Assembly: GCF_002285795.1 (NCBI RefSeq)
Contig: NZ_CP022961.1
Coordinates: 248,001 to 312,000 of the forward strand
Length of the DNA stretch: 64,000 bases
Direction of reading: 5' to 3'
DNA from: Plantactinospora sp. KBS50
GTDB taxonomy: Bacteria > Actinomycetota > Actinomycetes > Mycobacteriales > Micromonosporaceae
Position 1 is the stretch's first letter, and every line of letters begins with the position of its first letter. Shown here one piece after another: positions 29,334 to 36,214 of this stretch. Below the pieces are notes generated by a model that was given only the letters and a program-made list of their open reading frames with translations, ran no database searches and was not told the DNA's origin. Both the position numbers and the translations under genes were made by a program.

Positions 29334-30158
29334 ATGAAGACCGTCCTGTCCCTCGTCCTGCCCGACATGCCGCGCGCGGCTGCCATCTGGATCGTTCTCC
29401 TGCTGCTCGGCCTGGCCGCGATGGTCGCCCTGGTCGTCCAACCCGCCCGGTCGCGCCGGGCCGAGGCGGCCGACGAACCGGTTCCGCTCGACGACGAGCA
29501 GCAGGACCTGCTGCGCTACGCCGACGAGGTGGCCGTGGCGGCCGACCGGGCGGCCGCGACCGCCCGGCAGGCCCGGGAGGCGTGGTCGGCGGCCCAGGAC
29601 GAGGTCGAGTCCGCCTGGCAGGCGTACCGGGCCGCGGAGAAGGCGCTGGAACCGGTCCGCGCGGCGGCCGCGCTGCCGGCCCCGTGCACCCCGCAGACCC
29701 CGGCCGAGTACGCCGACCGCGAGCGGTACCTGCACCGCGCGGTGATCGCCGCACACTGGCGGGGCGAGCTGTCGGTGAGCCGGCTCACCGACGCGCTCGC
29801 GCACCGGGCCGGCTGGGACCCGCGACTGCATCCCTTCGACCAGGAACGGCACCTGCTCCAGGTCATCCGGGACGACCTGCTGGCCGGGCACCAGGCGGCG
29901 GCCGAGCGGGAGCGCGCGGCGTGGCAGCAGGCCGAGCGGTCGGCCGAGGCCGCCCGCAGCCTGCGGGCCGAGGCGGCCCGCGCCACGGCGCGGGCCACCC
30001 GCCCGGCGCGCGGCGGGGACCTGATGGCGGAGCTGCTGGCCACGGCGGCGCCGGAGCCGACCGCGGGTACGCCGTCCGGGCCGGTGGGTGCACCGTCCGG
30101 GCCGGCCGGTACGTCCCGCCCGGCGGCGGGCCGGCTGCGTGCCGCGCGGGCCGGCTGA
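29334..30158 (+). CDS. Membrane-anchored coiled-coil protein, function unknown
   Basis: A 274-aa protein with a single helix near the N-terminus (AAAIWIVLLLLGLAAMVALV) and a long charged alpha-helical domain (residues 50-245), rich in Ala, Arg and Glu and predicted coiled coil (for example AAERERAAWQQAERSAEAAR). A conserved-looking segment RYLHRAVIAAHWRGELSVS interrupts the coil. ATG 29334 follows GAGGTGCCCCC. Its last codons (LRAARAG and stop) are copied several times downstream as 40-bp tandem repeats. Such proteins occur in actinobacterial cell-envelope contexts, but no role can be assigned. Confidence 0.65.
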   Translation: MKTVLSLVLPDMPRAAAIWIVLLLLGLAAMVALVVQPARSRRAEAADEPVPLDDEQQDLLRYADEVAVAADRAAATARQAREAWSAAQDEVESAWQAYRAAEKALEPVRAAAALPAPCTPQTPAEYADRERYLHRAVIAAHWRGELSVSRLTDALAHRAGWDPRLHPFDQERHLLQVIRDDLLAGHQAAAERERAAWQQAERSAEAARSLRAEAARATARATRPARGGDLMAELLATAAPEPTAGTPSGPVGAPSGPAGTSRPAAGRLRAARAG

Positions 30159-30330
30159 CCCCTGTGCGGCGCGGCTGCGCGCCGCGCGGGCCGGCTGACC
30201 CCTGTGCGGCGCGGCTGCGTGCCGCGCGGGCCGGCTGACCCCTGTGCGGCGCGGCTGCGTGCCGCGCGGGCCGGCTGACTCCTGCGCGGCGCGGCTGCGC
30301 GTCGCGCCGGCCGGCCGACTCTGCGTGCGG
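30139..30330. repeat. Four 40-bp tandem repeats plus a decayed fifth
   Basis: Units start at 30139, 30179, 30219 and 30259, each beginning GTGCCGCGCGGGCCGGCTGA or a one-base variant, with a diverged fifth from 30299. The first unit covers the last six codons and stop of the coiled-coil protein gene, so each later copy carries a spare copy of that C-terminal end (AARAG plus TGA). Confidence 0.9.
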
Positions 30331-30347
30331 CGGCGGTCGGCGCCCGG

Positions 30348-31967
30348 TCAGCCGCCGCTGGCCGCCGGGGAGGCCGTGCCGCGCAGCACCGGCAGCACGG
30401 GCGAACTGCCGAGCACCCGGCGGTCGGCGTCCAGCGCGTCGGCGGCCAGATAGGCCGGGACGTCCGGGATGGGCAGGGCGGTCTCGAACCCGGTCCGGTC
30501 GACCTCGGCCAGCATGCCCAACGAACCGGGCTGCGCTCCGCCGCGGACCCTCCAGCGCCGCACGTCGGTGGCGCCGTTCCAACTCGCGTACACGGTCGCG
30601 GCCGGTCCGTCCAGGTTCACCGCCACGGCGGGCGGCTCGGGCGGCGTACCCGACCAGGCGAACCGGTAGGCGCGGTAGGAGACGTTGTCGGCCGGCAGGT
30701 TGCCGGCGAACCGCACCGTTCCGTCGGCCGCGTGCTCCGAGAAGTACGGCCGGGCGCCCCACCCGATGAACGACGCATCGCCGGTCAGCTCCTGCAGGTT
30801 GCCCTGACTGGCCGCGAGCAGCCGGTCCGGATGCAGCATCTGCCGGACCAGGGTGGCGGTCCGGGCCTGCTCGTCGACGTCCAGTACCAGGCCACGGGAC
30901 CAGGTGGCGTCCTCGGTGATCCCCGCCCCGTTGTCGAACAGCCCGATCGTGCCGTCGTGGCGCAGCCGCACGTCGTGCTGCCAGGAGAACGCCGCGTCCG
31001 TGTCGAGCTGGAAGTCGCTGCGGGGCCCGCCGAGCCGCCAGCGGATCCGGCCGGTGGCCCGTTCGATCTTGTACACCGTCCAGGTGTGCCGGGCGGACAC
31101 CAACAGGTCACCGTCCCGGTCCACCGCCACGGCGTTGGCGTGGAAGAAGTCGTACGGCGATCCGGCCCGCTCGCCGCCGGGCAGTGGCGCCCGCGACTCG
31201 GCCAGTTCCACGTGCTCCAGCGCCCGCCACCGCCACAGGGTGCGGCCGGTCTCCAGGTCCACCTCCTGAAGGACGGCGTCGTAGACGGCGCCGGCGGCCG
31301 GCCCGCCGAGCGCGGACAGGTCGGCATCGACCGCCGGGCAGGTGAAGAAGAGCGCCGTGCCCTGCTCGGTGAGCACGAGTTCGTGCTGGTCGGCGGGCTC
31401 GCCGCCGGCTCCGCGCAGGCGGTGCAGCTCCCGGTAGGAGGTGTCCGCGATGACGAACTCGCCGGCGCCGATCCCGAGGGTGTGGTCGATGATCCCTTCC
31501 CACCAGGTGAGCACCGGGGCGTCGTTCAGGTGCTGCATCCGTGCGTCCGTGGCCACCTCGGCCGGCGCGGCAACCTGCCGGAACCAGACCGGGTCGCCGG
31601 ACGCGTCCACGATCAGCGGGCCGCGCCCACCGGCGCCGGCGGCCGGGGTGAGGAAGACCAGACCACCGTCGCTGCCCGCACCGGTCGTGATGGTCACCAC
31701 CGGCACGGACAGGTCGGGTCGGGAGACGTACCGGTGCAGTGGTGGAGTGTCCGCTGCCGGCCCCTCGGCGCTCGGGTTGCCGCGTTGGCCGAGCAGGTAG
31801 CCGGTGCCGCCACCGACCGCGGCCGCCGCCACGGCGCCGCCGCCGGCCAACAACCGCCGCCGGCTCAGGCGCGGTCGGCTCGGGCGCTGTCGGTCCGGCG
31901 GATCCGGTGGCCCGCCACGGGCGCTCCGCCGATCAGCCGGGGGGTCGGCCGGGGCGTGCTCGCTCAT
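30348..31967 (-). CDS. Arylsulfotransferase-family (ASST-like) Tat-exported protein
   Basis: A 539-aa secreted beta-propeller protein related to bacterial arylsulfate sulfotransferases. The Tat signal SRRRLLAGGGAVAAAAVGGG sits after a 35-residue proline-rich leader. Repeated propeller strands with W/D-rich turns follow, with the histidine-containing segments DFFHANAVAVDRDGD and FSWQHDVRLRHDGTIGLFDN typical of the family core. The C-terminal 110 residues form a fibronectin-like domain (PPAVAVNLDGPAATVYASWN). The actual sulfate donor and acceptor are unknown and many family members may be non-enzymatic. Confidence 0.8.
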   Translation of the reverse strand: MSEHAPADPPADRRSARGGPPDPPDRQRPSRPRLSRRRLLAGGGAVAAAAVGGGTGYLLGQRGNPSAEGPAADTPPLHRYVSRPDLSVPVVTITTGAGSDGGLVFLTPAAGAGGRGPLIVDASGDPVWFRQVAAPAEVATDARMQHLNDAPVLTWWEGIIDHTLGIGAGEFVIADTSYRELHRLRGAGGEPADQHELVLTEQGTALFFTCPAVDADLSALGGPAAGAVYDAVLQEVDLETGRTLWRWRALEHVELAESRAPLPGGERAGSPYDFFHANAVAVDRDGDLLVSARHTWTVYKIERATGRIRWRLGGPRSDFQLDTDAAFSWQHDVRLRHDGTIGLFDNGAGITEDATWSRGLVLDVDEQARTATLVRQMLHPDRLLAASQGNLQELTGDASFIGWGARPYFSEHAADGTVRFAGNLPADNVSYRAYRFAWSGTPPEPPAVAVNLDGPAATVYASWNGATDVRRWRVRGGAQPGSLGMLAEVDRTGFETALPIPDVPAYLAADALDADRRVLGSSPVLPVLRGTASPAASGG

Positions 31968-32119
31968 TCCGAAGAGACTGCCCCGTGCAACTGGGCATCA
32001 ACCACAAGATTTGCTGTGTGTTTCTTGGGAGTCCGGGACGAGCCCGTCGTCCGGTGCCACCCCGGGGTTGACGGGACGGCGGCGGTGCCGGTCCGCCGCC
32101 GTCCCGCCAGCGGGGGTGG

Positions 32120-32758
32120 TCAGGCGACCCCGACGGGCCGGAACTGGACGCTGACCCGTGGGCCGACCGGGCGGGCGGTCTTCGGAACCGCGTGCTCCCA
32201 GGTGCGTTGGCAGGATCCGCCCATCACCACCAGATCGCCGTGGCCGAGCAGGAAGCGCCGGCTCTCCCCACCGCCACGCGGCCGTAGCAGCAGGGGGCGC
32301 GGTGCGCCGAACGAGACGATCGCGACCATGGTGTCCAGATAGGCCGACCGGCCGCGGGTGTCGCCGTGCCAGGCGACGCTGTCCCGCCCGTCGCGGTAGA
32401 GACACAGGCCGGCGGTGACGAACGGCTCGCCCAACTCGCGCAGGTAGTGCTCGGTGAGCCGGTTGCGCGCGTCGGTGAGCACGGGATGGGGCAGCCGGTC
32501 GCGGCCGTCATACCAGCACAGAAGCCGGGGAACGGCCACGTCGTTGTCGTACATCGTGCGCCGTTCGGCCCGCCACGGGACGTCGCTGAGCAGGGTGCGC
32601 AGCACCGCGTCGGAGCCGCGGACCCAGCCGGCCAGGTGGTCGACCCAGGCGCCGTCGGTGAGCTCGTGGCGGCGGACCCGGCCGGCCAGCCAACCCAGCC
32701 GGGCGCCGCGCTCGTCGTCGAGGTCGAGCATCGAGGGTTGGTACGCCAGGGAGGTCAT
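32120..32758 (-). CDS. AlkB-type 2-oxoglutarate/Fe(II) dioxygenase
   Basis: A 212-aa DNA/RNA repair dioxygenase that removes alkyl groups from bases. Iron ligands are seen in AWHGDTRG (H-x-D) and TWEHAVPK (distal His); the 2-oxoglutarate arginines lie in PRVSVQFRPV. The substrate-lid region includes RRTMYDNDVAVPRLL. ATG 32758 is chosen since residues before it are not conserved-looking. It stands alone between the ASST-like gene and the mini-gene region. It resembles the actinobacterial AlkB branch in length. Confidence 0.85.
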   Translation of the reverse strand: MTSLAYQPSMLDLDDERGARLGWLAGRVRRHELTDGAWVDHLAGWVRGSDAVLRTLLSDVPWRAERRTMYDNDVAVPRLLCWYDGRDRLPHPVLTDARNRLTEHYLRELGEPFVTAGLCLYRDGRDSVAWHGDTRGRSAYLDTMVAIVSFGAPRPLLLRPRGGGESRRFLLGHGDLVVMGGSCQRTWEHAVPKTARPVGPRVSVQFRPVGVA

Positions 32759-32918
32759 GCGGATCACCCTACCCCGGCTTTCGAACTTGTGTTCGACGAA
32801 TCGCCGGACCGTCCGGTAGGTCGGCATCCGCGGCGCGGGTGTGGTCGCGGCCGCTGGTCGGGGTGCCGTGCGCGGTGTCGCGCGAGGGTGTGACGGGTCC
32901 TTTCGATCGGAAATGCGA

Positions 32919-32948
32919 TTGCCGGTACGAAGGGAACGGTCGTACGGT
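32919..32948 (+). promoter_or_regulatory. Candidate sigma-70-type promoter for the mini-gene
   Basis: TTGCCG (32919-32924) and TACGGT (32943-32948) are separated by 18 bases, matching the principal actinobacterial sigma factor pattern closely enough to be plausible. Transcription would start near 32955, about 36 bases before the 38-codon reading frame that ends just ahead of an intrinsic terminator. Confidence 0.5.
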
Positions 32949-32990
32949 TATCGGGCAGGTTCAACCGTTGGGGAAAGCGGGGGGCGCACG

Positions 32991-33107
32991 ATGTGGTGCG
33001 GATGGACGAGCGGTTCGCCCGCTCCGGCCGTCGATCGGTCCGACGTGGCTCGGCACGCCTCTGGGCTGCTCGGATTGGCGGCCTGGGTGGCGGTGGAGGT
33101 CGGGTAG
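32991..33107 (+). CDS. 38-residue mini-gene, function unknown
   Basis: ATG 32991 opens MWCGWTSGSPAPAVDRSD and continues through a hydrophobic end (GLLGLAAWVAVEVG). A purine-rich GGGAAAGCGGGGGG lies just upstream as ribosome site, a promoter-like pair precedes it, and a stem-loop with a T-run follows 24 bases after the stop. The three signals make a compact transcription unit of about 210 nt. The peptide has two Trp at the start, one Cys, and a possible amphipathic tail; it could be a small membrane-associated peptide or the coding part of a dual-function RNA. No family is recognised. The remaining sequence between 32759 and 33289 shows no other gene. Confidence 0.45.
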   Translation: MWCGWTSGSPAPAVDRSDVARHASGLLGLAAWVAVEVG

Positions 33108-33130
33108 CCAGCGCCCGCCGCCAACCGCGA

Positions 33131-33164
33131 GCCGCCCGTCCGTACGCACGGAGGGCGGCTTTTT
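33131..33164 (+). terminator. Intrinsic terminator with T-run
   Basis: GCCGCCCGTCCGT (33131-33143) pairs with ACGGAGGGCGGC (33148-33159) with one bulged base and a four-base loop, followed by TTTTT. One of the few T-run terminators in this window; it ends the mini-gene unit. Confidence 0.85.
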
Positions 33165-33289
33165 GGGTATCTAAAAATTGAACATAGTCAATTGTTGAGC
33201 CTCGCGGGGGGAACGGGGGGAGCCGGGCCGGGAAACAGGGTGGGGCAGCCCGTTCCCGGTCCGGTTCGCGGGCGCCGCCGGGTGTGGGG

Positions 33290-33871
33290 TCAGGCCGGCC
33301 TGATGTACGACAGGGCGGCCCCGACCACCTCACCGAGCGGCCGGTCGGGGTGGTCCATCCAGTGCTGGATCGCGGTGCGCAGCGCGTTGAGGAAGGTGGC
33401 GGCCAGGACCCGGGACCGGAGCGTGGCGTCCGGCCGGCCCGGCATCCGGTGCAGCAGCTCGGTGGCCAGGTCCCGCTCGACGGCGCCGTACATGGAGATC
33501 TGCTGTGCGGCCAGGCCGGGATGGTTGCCGACGAGCCGGCGCCGGGTGAACCACTCCGGTTCCCGTGCGGCCTCGGCGGCGAGCCGCTCGGCGGCGTGCC
33601 GGAGTGCCGTCCACGGCTCCTCGCTCTGCGGCCGGCTCCGGACCAAGTCGATCACCGAGCGCAGCCGGACCAGGTCGGCGTGCAGCAGCGCCTCCTCCTT
33701 GCTGGCGAAGTAGTTGGAGAAGGTCCGCCGGGACACCTCCGCGGCGTCGGCTATCGCCTCCACGGTCACCCGGTCCAGGCCCTGCTCGATGGCCAGTCGA
33801 AGCGCGGCCTCGTGCAGCGCCTGCCGGGTGGCGGCCTTCTTGCGCTCCCGTAGCCCGAGCCTGTCGTCCAC
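33290..33871 (-). CDS. TetR/AcrR family transcriptional regulator
   Basis: A 193-aa repressor. The N-terminal helix-turn-helix reads VTVEAIADAAEVSRRTFSNYF, the TetR signature; the C-terminal ligand domain (from about residue 75) resembles the MftR-like C-terminal region with AATFLNALRTAIQHWMDHPD. It is divergent from a MarR-family gene and its drug exporter, with two inverted repeats in the 106-bp spacer, so it may control that exporter or itself. Confidence 0.9.
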   Translation of the reverse strand: MDDRLGLRERKKAATRQALHEAALRLAIEQGLDRVTVEAIADAAEVSRRTFSNYFASKEEALLHADLVRLRSVIDLVRSRPQSEEPWTALRHAAERLAAEAAREPEWFTRRRLVGNHPGLAAQQISMYGAVERDLATELLHRMPGRPDATLRSRVLAATFLNALRTAIQHWMDHPDRPLGEVVGAALSYIRPA

Positions 33872-33911
33872 GTCGGCAGTCTAGAGCCGAGGTGACGGTG
33901 TTCTCACTGAG

Positions 33912-33966
33912 CAAACTTGCACAGCAGGCAAGTTTGTGGAAACTTGTGTGAGGCAACCAAGTTTCC
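33912..33966. promoter_or_regulatory. Two adjacent inverted repeats with AAACTTG/CAAGTTT arms
   Basis: Site 1: CAAACTTGC (33912-33920), seven-base spacer, exact complement GCAAGTTTG (33928-33936). Site 2: GGAAACTTG (33938-33946), eleven-base spacer, exact complement CAAGTTTCC (33958-33966). Both lie in the divergent TetR/MarR promoter, the second ending just before the GAGGAGG ribosome site of the MarR gene. The shared half-site indicates a double operator, probably of the MarR protein. Confidence 0.8.
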
Positions 33967-33977
33967 GAGGAGGCGGC

Positions 33978-34475
33978 GTGGCCAACCCCAGCACCGCGGC
34001 CCAGGCGGAACTGGTCGACCGCATGCGCGACCTCACCCGGCTCGCCCGCCAGGTCCGGCAGCGCCGCACCGGGGCCAGCACCGCCGTACCCGGCGGCACG
34101 CTCGAAACCCTCGCCCACCTCGGCCAGATCGTGGACCGACCAGCCGGCTGCCACGCCAAGGAACTGGCCGTCGTCGCCGGCCTCGACCCGTCCACCGTGA
34201 GCCGGGCGGTGGCAGCGCTCGTCGCCGACGGCCTCGTCGAGCGCCACCCCGACCCGGCCGACCGGCGAGCCAGCGTGCTGGTCCTCACCGAAACCGGCCG
34301 GGCCGCGCTGGCCGCGGCCCAGCGCTGGTACGGCGACCTGCTCGACCGGGCACTCGCCGGCTGGCGACCCGAGGAGATCGACAACCTCACCCGGGCGCTC
34401 CACCGGCTCACCACGGACATCCACCAAGCCCTCGAAGACGAACCCCGAATCCCCGACCTGGAGGCCGCGCGATGA
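33978..34475 (+). CDS. MarR family transcriptional regulator
   Basis: A 165-aa winged-helix repressor: helix-turn-helix AKELAVVAGLDPSTVSRAVA and wing DPADRRASVLVLTETGR are clear. GTG 33978 is chosen for the GAGGAGG six bases upstream; an in-frame ATG-like start further up would lie inside the operator. Its stop overlaps the start of the DHA2 exporter gene (ATGA), so it is the classic regulator-pump operon in which ligand binding releases the repressor. Confidence 0.9.
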   Translation: MANPSTAAQAELVDRMRDLTRLARQVRQRRTGASTAVPGGTLETLAHLGQIVDRPAGCHAKELAVVAGLDPSTVSRAVAALVADGLVERHPDPADRRASVLVLTETGRAALAAAQRWYGDLLDRALAGWRPEEIDNLTRALHRLTTDIHQALEDEPRIPDLEAAR

Positions 34476-36214
34476 GCGCCCCGACCGCAACCACCACCGC
34501 GCAGCACGCGGAGCCGATGAGCCACCGGCAGATCCTGGAGGCGCTCAGCGGCCTGCTGCTGGTGCTCTTCGTCGCCCTGCTCAGCAGCACCGTGGTCTCC
34601 ACCGCGCTGCCCCGGATCATCGGGGCGCTGCACGGCTCGCAGACCCAGTACACCTGGGTGGTCACCGCGACCCTGCTCACCGCCACCGCGACCACCCCCA
34701 TCTGGGGCAAGCTGGCCGACCTGTTCAACAAGAAGGCGCTCGTCCAGATCTCCATCGTGGTCTTCGTCCTCGGCTCCGCCGTGGCCGGACTCAGCCAGAG
34801 CGCCGGACAGCTCATCGCGGCCCGCGCCTTCCAGGGCATCGGCGTCGGCGGCCTGCAGGCCCTGGTCCAGGTCGCCATCGCCGCGATGATCCCGCCCCGG
34901 GAACGCGGCAGGTACAACGGCTACCTCGGCGGGGTGATGGCACTGGCCACCGTGGGCGGCCCGCTGCTGGGCGGCCTCATCGTGGACACCTCCTGGCTCG
35001 GCTGGCGCTGGTGCTTCTTCGTCGGCGTCCCGGTCGCCATCGTCGCGCTGATCGTGCTCCAGGCCACCCTGCACCTGCCCACCATCCGCCGGGACAACGT
35101 GAAGATCGACTACCTGGGCGCCAGCCTGATCGCCGCGGGCGTGAGCGTGCTGCTCATCTGGGTCTCCTTCGTCGACAACTCGTTCGACTGGTTCTCCTGG
35201 CAGACCGCCGCCATGGTGGGCGCCTCGCTGCTCCTGCTCGCCCTCGCCGTACTCGTCGAATCCCGCGCGGCCGAACCCGTCGTACCCCTGAAGATCGTCC
35301 GCGAACGCACCACCGCGCTGGCCATCCTGGCGAGCGTCGCGGTCGGCATGGCGATGTTCGGCGGCGCCGTCTTCCTCGGCCAGTACTTCCAGATCGGCCG
35401 CGGCTACAGCCCGACCGAGGCCGGCCTGCTCACCATCCCGCTGATGGCCGGCGTACTGGGCGCCTCCATCGTCGCCGGCCAACTGATCACCCGTACCGGC
35501 CGGATCAGGCCGTACATCATCACCGGCCTGGTCGTCCTGGCCGCCGGCTTCGCGATGCTCGGCACCATCGACCACCAGACCTCACTGGTCTACGTCGGCG
35601 CCGGCATGTTCCTGGTCGGCGTGGGCGTCGGCATGAGCATGCAGAACCTGGTGCTGGCCGTCCAGAACACGGTGGCGCTGCGCGACATCGGCGCGGCCAG
35701 TTCGACCGTGGCGTTCTTCCGCTCCCTCGGCGGCGCCATGGGCGTATCCGTGCTCGGCGCCGTGCTCGCCCACCGGGTCACCGACCGGATCACCCACGAC
35801 CTGAGCGCCGCCGGCATCCCCGCCGACGGATCCAGCGGCGGTGGCACGCTGGACCTCGCCTCCCTGCCGGCACCGATCGCGCAGATCGTGCGCTCCGCGT
35901 ACGGCGACGCCACCGGCCACATCTTCCTGATCTCGGCCGCCATCGCGGTGCTGGGTCTGCTGGCCGCGCTCCTGTTCAAGCCGGTCACCCTGCGTACCAG
36001 CCTTGACCTGCCGGACGCGACCGCGGCGGCCGGCGAGGCCGCCGGGGCGGTGGGCGGCGCGCCGGTCCCGGAACCGGCCCCGGAACCGGCCGCGGGTTCG
36101 ACGCCGGGTTCGACCCCGGGTTCGACCCCGGACGAGGCGTCGGACGGGGTCCCGGGTGGGGCCGGTACCGGAGTCGACGGCCGGGCCGCGACCGGGAGCG
36201 CACCCCGCCGGTAG
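34472..36214 (+). CDS. DHA2-family MFS multidrug exporter (EmrB/QacA type)
   Basis: A 580-aa transporter with fourteen helices. Motif A is GKLADLFNKKALVQ, motif C the glycine/proline stretch GGVMALATVGGPLLGGLI, and YTWVVTATLLTATATTP the family-specific helix-2 entry. It exports drugs by proton antiport. The cytoplasmic tail is disordered and contains GSTPGST repeats encoded by a 15-bp tandem repeat. It is co-translated with the MarR gene and ends before a hairpin terminator. Confidence 0.9.
   Translation: MSAPTATTTAQHAEPMSHRQILEALSGLLLVLFVALLSSTVVSTALPRIIGALHGSQTQYTWVVTATLLTATATTPIWGKLADLFNKKALVQISIVVFVLGSAVAGLSQSAGQLIAARAFQGIGVGGLQALVQVAIAAMIPPRERGRYNGYLGGVMALATVGGPLLGGLIVDTSWLGWRWCFFVGVPVAIVALIVLQATLHLPTIRRDNVKIDYLGASLIAAGVSVLLIWVSFVDNSFDWFSWQTAAMVGASLLLLALAVLVESRAAEPVVPLKIVRERTTALAILASVAVGMAMFGGAVFLGQYFQIGRGYSPTEAGLLTIPLMAGVLGASIVAGQLITRTGRIRPYIITGLVVLAAGFAMLGTIDHQTSLVYVGAGMFLVGVGVGMSMQNLVLAVQNTVALRDIGAASSTVAFFRSLGGAMGVSVLGAVLAHRVTDRITHDLSAAGIPADGSSGGGTLDLASLPAPIAQIVRSAYGDATGHIFLISAAIAVLGLLAALLFKPVTLRTSLDLPDATAAAGEAAGAVGGAPVPEPAPEPAAGSTPGSTPGSTPDEASDGVPGGAGTGVDGRAATGSAPRR

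Follow-up and report, generated by a model that had tools for sequence, protein, structure and literature searches.

A candidate lineage-specific small transcription unit with a T-run terminator between an AlkB-like and a TetR-type gene in a high-GC actinomycete

In actinobacteria, the known intergenic small RNAs are short units that lie between genes and carry promoter-like and terminator-like signals, and in the leader-peptide attenuators of the whiB7 type a short reading frame is followed by a T-run terminator. The mini-unit described here lies in a stretch of 64,000 nucleotides (hereafter the window) of the source genome, which is a single contig of 6.69 Mb. It resembles the former in being short, intergenic and provided with promoter-like and terminator-like signals, and the latter in having a short frame before a T-run terminator; it differs from the small RNAs in having neither an Rfam family at the gathering score nor sequence relatives detected by the searches below, and from the attenuators in that no co-oriented gene stands directly downstream and that the alternative pairing does not rise above chance. 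Intergenic small RNAs have been predicted in Streptomyces clavuligerus (PMC11678152, in excerpt), and in the same species the structured U-rich 3′ ends (HS-U-rich class) are associated with the least read-through and with higher transcript levels, according to the excerpted text of PMC8269248. Like the ends of that class, the 3′ end of the mini-unit consists of a GC-rich stem-loop and then a U-run, five of the eight bases that follow the stem-loop being U where the excerpt sets a threshold of three; its hairpin, at -22.4 kcal/mol alone and -28.9 over the 51 nt around it, straddles the divide of -23 given there, with the proviso that the folding lengths may differ. Unlike the ends of that class, the 3′ end of the mini-unit is a prediction from sequence only.

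Along the + strand of the gap between the AlkB-like and the TetR-type gene, the order of the elements is a promoter-like pair, a G-rich run, a 38-codon ATG frame, and a hairpin followed by TTTTT; these elements and the two neighbouring genes are as follows.

32120-32758 (likely extent), - strand: AlkB-like 2OG-Fe(II) oxygenase gene, divergent neighbour (PF13532, E 4e-16)
32919-32924, + strand: -35-like hexamer TTGCCG (sequence and pattern counts)
32925-32945, + strand: inverted repeat GTACGA-N9-TCGTAC, spanning the spacer between the hexamers and the first bases of the -10 (read by eye, no control)
32943-32948, + strand: -10-like hexamer TACGGT, after an 18-base spacer (sequence and pattern counts)
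32955-33164, + strand: transcript of about 210 nt, predicted from promoter and terminator, its start assumed about 7 bases past the -10
32979-32984, + strand: G-rich run GGGGGG, resembling a ribosome site (sequence)
32991-33107, + strand: 38-codon ATG frame, TAG stop included (sequence; coding signal weak)
33131-33164, + strand: intrinsic terminator, hairpin and TTTTT (sequence, strict scan, local fold)
33290-33871, - strand: TetR-type regulator gene, convergent neighbour (PF00440 and PF17754)

The sequence-only reading had placed a promoter-like pair with 18-base spacing, a purine-rich ribosome site, a short frame and a terminator within 250 bp, and all of these are present at the positions just listed; its proposal of an autonomous unit with a T-run terminator is likewise backed by the sequence, through the strict terminator scan and the pattern counts given below. 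The GGGGGG run stands six bases ahead of the ATG at 32991, and the terminator comprises a hairpin of 12 pairs with one bulge and a 4-base loop (33131-33159) and the TTTTT at 33160-33164. The T-run is found on the + strand only, and 182 bases of that same strand separate the end of the promoter pattern from the hairpin. Both neighbours are on the other strand, and therefore no gene of the annotated type ends at the terminator. This arrangement makes an RNA of about 210 nt credible, and the inverted repeat at 32925-32945 is a possible candidate for an operator.

The terminator was evaluated with a strict scan, which required a stem of 8 or more pairs, allowed no more than 2 unpaired bases outside the loop and asked for 4 or more T among 5; these limits were fixed after the result of a looser scan. 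In the window, on both strands, the strict scan gave three matches, with the terminator of the mini-unit as the strongest (-22.4 vs -14.8 and -13.6 kcal/mol), and no strict match at -22 kcal/mol or below appeared when 20 strands of 64 kb were simulated with a second-order Markov model. The looser, earlier scan yielded 5 to 18 matches in each simulated strand and, in 7 of 10, a hairpin stronger than -22.4 and more irregular; the beyond-chance case for the terminator rests on the tight stem together with the T-run, and the looser scan alone would not show it. When 400 kb of the same genome were scanned on both strands, 19 strict matches were obtained. Three of these, located at two sites, are at -20 or lower, and no tail among the 19 contains a run of five T. 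The local fold of the site points in the same direction (z -3.4; 1 of 200 shuffles as good), and the arrangement of an intrinsic terminator, a T-run immediately downstream of a GC-rich hairpin, is present here beyond chance. The statement that T-run terminators are rare in this genome is thus right for the window and the 400-kb sample under the strict scan. A stock scanner reported two terminators in 30000-36000, both elsewhere, and missed this hairpin because its stem is bulged. Folded as a whole, the RNA of about 210 nt is not strongly structured (z -1.7; 12 of 200 shuffles as good), and the part ahead of the terminator is not unusually structured either (z -0.5 and -1.2). Directly after the terminator there is an AT-rich palindrome, AATTGA-N6-TCAATT (33176-33193). 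A repeat element was considered at this site and rejected, the hairpin core and the palindrome having one copy each in the genome, the palindrome even when 3 mismatches are allowed.

The two hexamers, TTGCCG and TACGGT at a distance of 18 bases, fit a housekeeping promoter pattern of actinobacteria. A tight pattern devised after seeing the site, TTG[AC]CN-17/18-TANNNT, has two occurrences on the + strand of the window and none on the - strand, where 0.15 would be expected on each, and seven in 400 kb counted over both strands; by arithmetic from this last rate, the chance that a given 250-base stretch on one strand contains it is about 0.2%. No enrichment in the window is seen for the looser TTGNNN-16/19-TANNNT (4 and 1 occurrences vs 3.15 expected per strand). 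Because the tight pattern is post hoc and the looser one unenriched, pattern rarity is only suggestive of a promoter belonging to the mini-unit itself. The stock scanner returned no E. coli-type promoter in 30000-36000, and the site escaped it because TACGGT agrees with TATAAT at three positions only.

Regarding the product, the sequence-only reading had offered a small peptide of 38 codons, which is not borne out by the codon usage, low in this frame, or by the peptide matches, which are at chance level. Scored with a codon table of 98 long ORFs (41,438 codons) from a genome sample, the 37 codons after the start reach -0.17 per codon, against a median of 0.38 for equal-length pieces of the neighbouring genes, only 1 of 43 of which is as low; scores at or above that of the mini-frame are attained by 69 of 215 off-frame pieces, and of the six frames across these bases the ATG frame ranks second, the remaining five lying between -0.10 and -0.59. 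When the table is taken from five neighbour genes, which are also in the comparison, the mini-frame drops to -0.26, below all 43 gene pieces. The GC content by codon position is 73/68/81% in the mini-frame vs 74/54/93% in the neighbours, and the frame does not show the codon usage of the genome that would mark a small-protein gene. The frequency of such frames by chance was estimated from 2000 simulated 176-nt stretches, in which closed frames 38 or more codons long were found in 3.9% when starting with ATG, in 1.2% when the ATG was accompanied by a lax ribosome site, in 4.5% for ATG or GTG with a site, and in 14.9% for ATG or GTG with no site; as the combination of ATG frame and ribosome site is seen in no more than 1.2% of the simulations, the frame may still be translated. 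This figure, the good placement of the G-rich site ahead of the ATG, and the fact that no other frame of at least 15 codons starts from ATG within the predicted transcript, would be compatible with a young lineage-specific peptide of 38 residues with a hydrophobic C-terminal stretch. Such a peptide is nevertheless unlikely, given codon usage at the bottom of the gene pieces, matches among family and class genomes no better than chance, and no Pfam family for the peptide, and this reading is less likely than that of an RNA.

The short frame could also be a leader peptide, the translation of which would choose between the terminator and an alternative pairing, with a read-through RNA antisense to TetR and reaching the MarR-MFS genes. 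Codons close to the beginning of the frame are able to pair with the 5′ arm of the terminator, at a predicted probability of 0.997 before the 3′ arm exists, but this complementarity does not exceed chance, since 106 shuffled leaders in 1000 do equally well; in the full RNA the terminator wins over the alternative pairing, with a predicted 0.97. No regulated gene is found directly downstream on the same strand, the next gene being TetR, on the opposite strand, and the next + strand gene begins about 770 bases beyond the mini-unit, past this opposing gene, so that a leader-peptide attenuator is very improbable. More far-fetched still is a translation-controlled terminator gating antisense RNA over TetR into the MarR-MFS operon (likely for drug export), which would constitute an attenuated antisense efflux switch. 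A type I toxin-antitoxin pair was also considered and rejected, with no minus-strand promoter pattern nearby.

Relatives of the unit were searched for in 354 genomes of the family and 394 of the class, both sets including the own genome and neither containing a second genome of the genus. With the peptide as query and E up to 0.1, 82 of the 354 family genomes match, the own genome included; the best E per genome in the other 81 is 0.001, close to the value expected by chance over 354 genomes, and the foreign matches were treated as chance. The best of them, in one genome (E 0.001), has 61% identity over residues 1-28, and the foreign peptide matches that were fetched are partial and mostly inside longer frames; at 0.001, the class set of 394 genomes yields no match outside the own genome. 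The DNA query matches in 7 of 61 genomes at 0.001 and in 65 of the 354 family genomes at E 0.001, the own genome being one in each case, and among the foreign matches in the family, the 29 loci read with 60 bases of context are short and align to differing stretches of the query, and no T-run follows the aligned segment. No match to the DNA was obtained in phages or plasmids; Rfam gave nothing in the unit at the gathering score and, at a loose threshold, four weak hits, all to unrelated families and well short of the respective cut-offs. A chance assembly or a decaying remnant with no present transcript would agree with relatives at chance level only and with the lack of phage or plasmid matches, but hardly with a rare terminator spaced after the promoter pattern, and it is accordingly given very little weight.

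The loci of the neighbouring genes in other genomes were inspected from both sides. On the AlkB side, 80 loci were listed of 586 confirmed, and 54 of these (L008-L061) were scanned over 1000 bases upstream: none of the 54 has a comparable terminator, 52 have no strict match, and L009 and L012 have weak matches with TTCTTC tails. A TetR, MarR or sulfotransferase-like gene at 1e-20 is present in none of the 80 listed AlkB-relative loci (of 586). On the other side, TetR relatives are matched in 199 of the 354 family genomes, and 29 foreign loci were fetched and scanned for hairpins behind TetR on the opposite strand under looser limits (3 T of 5); some hairpin occurs in 12 of the 29, in no case with a run of T longer than two, and the strongest, in L160, reach -22.4 and -25.9 with the tails TGGTTACTCC and GTTACTCCCC. 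A hairpin retained without the reading frame, which the sequence-only reading had named as evidence against it, was not found, since the relatives' loci examined at either neighbour keep neither. Among the genomes searched, the unit seems to be peculiar to its own lineage. These loci also bear on whether the terminator is mainly a stopper of weak or pervasive transcription coming from upstream of the AlkB-like gene, placed before the antisense strand of TetR is reached, with an idle RNA. The position of the site between divergent and convergent genes, the T-run on the + strand only, and the lack of an Rfam family and of DNA relatives are in agreement with such a role; we regard it as doubtful in view of the recognisable promoter-like pair just upstream of the terminator and frame and of the relatives' loci at either neighbour, which are without a comparable terminator and therefore indicate that these neighbours do not generally need one.

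The best explanation, with a probability of roughly 0.5, is a lineage-specific, self-contained transcription unit, likely for a small RNA, in which the 38-codon frame is incidental or at most weakly translated. RNA polymerase would start near 32955 at a housekeeping-type promoter and halt at 33164, on the U-run hairpin. The resulting RNA, some 210 nt long, would be stabilised by the stable hairpin at its end and would act as such, as a small RNA and possibly a regulatory one. The terminator may also stop this transcription from going antisense into TetR, with transcription ending about 125 bases before the TetR stop codon is reached; such shielding would need no function of the RNA itself. We infer the transcription, the exact ends and the RNA function alike. 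That the transcript is abundant is plausible only, a guess supported indirectly because in S. clavuligerus structured U-rich ends are accompanied by higher transcript levels (PMC8269248, in excerpt). If transcribed, the mini-unit would give a clean example, in a high-GC actinomycete, of a small transcription unit that is an orphan, and strong T-run terminators look rare enough there to flag units of this type; by itself it opens no long-standing question, and is a tidy candidate of a known kind, drawn from the DNA letters only.

Regarding the divergent neighbour, the top relatives of the AlkB-like gene, among the matches listed, are from Micromonospora and its kin, which makes an origin of the genome in the Micromonosporaceae likely. 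Its likely start was put at 32758 because the alignment of the relatives begins one residue past that ATG, 32827 being the start of the longest open frame. A perfect actinobacterial SOS box, TCGAAC-N4-GTTCGA, the only one in the window, lies upstream of the gene at 32781-32796, and a TAGGGT stands seven bases ahead of the ATG at 32758. Upstream of AlkB relatives (80 listed of 586; no chance control), the box is perfect in 6 of 80 and has up to 2 mismatches in 62 of 80, those 6 included. The SOS box and the TAGGGT suggest that the AlkB-like mRNA may be induced by DNA damage and possibly leaderless. SOS control of AlkB is already known biology, since AlkB is among the listed LexA targets of Streptomyces venezuelae (PMC9380542, in excerpt).

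On the convergent side, the stretch 33290-36214 forms a divergent TetR / MarR-MFS module, in which the MFS is putative and named from its sequence, and the pairing of TetR with MarR was found again in 20 of the 29 foreign loci that were retrieved for TetR within the family. An inverted repeat read by eye, CAAACTTGC-N7-GCAAGTTTG, lies at 33912-33936 in the gap separating these two divergent genes and is a likely operator.
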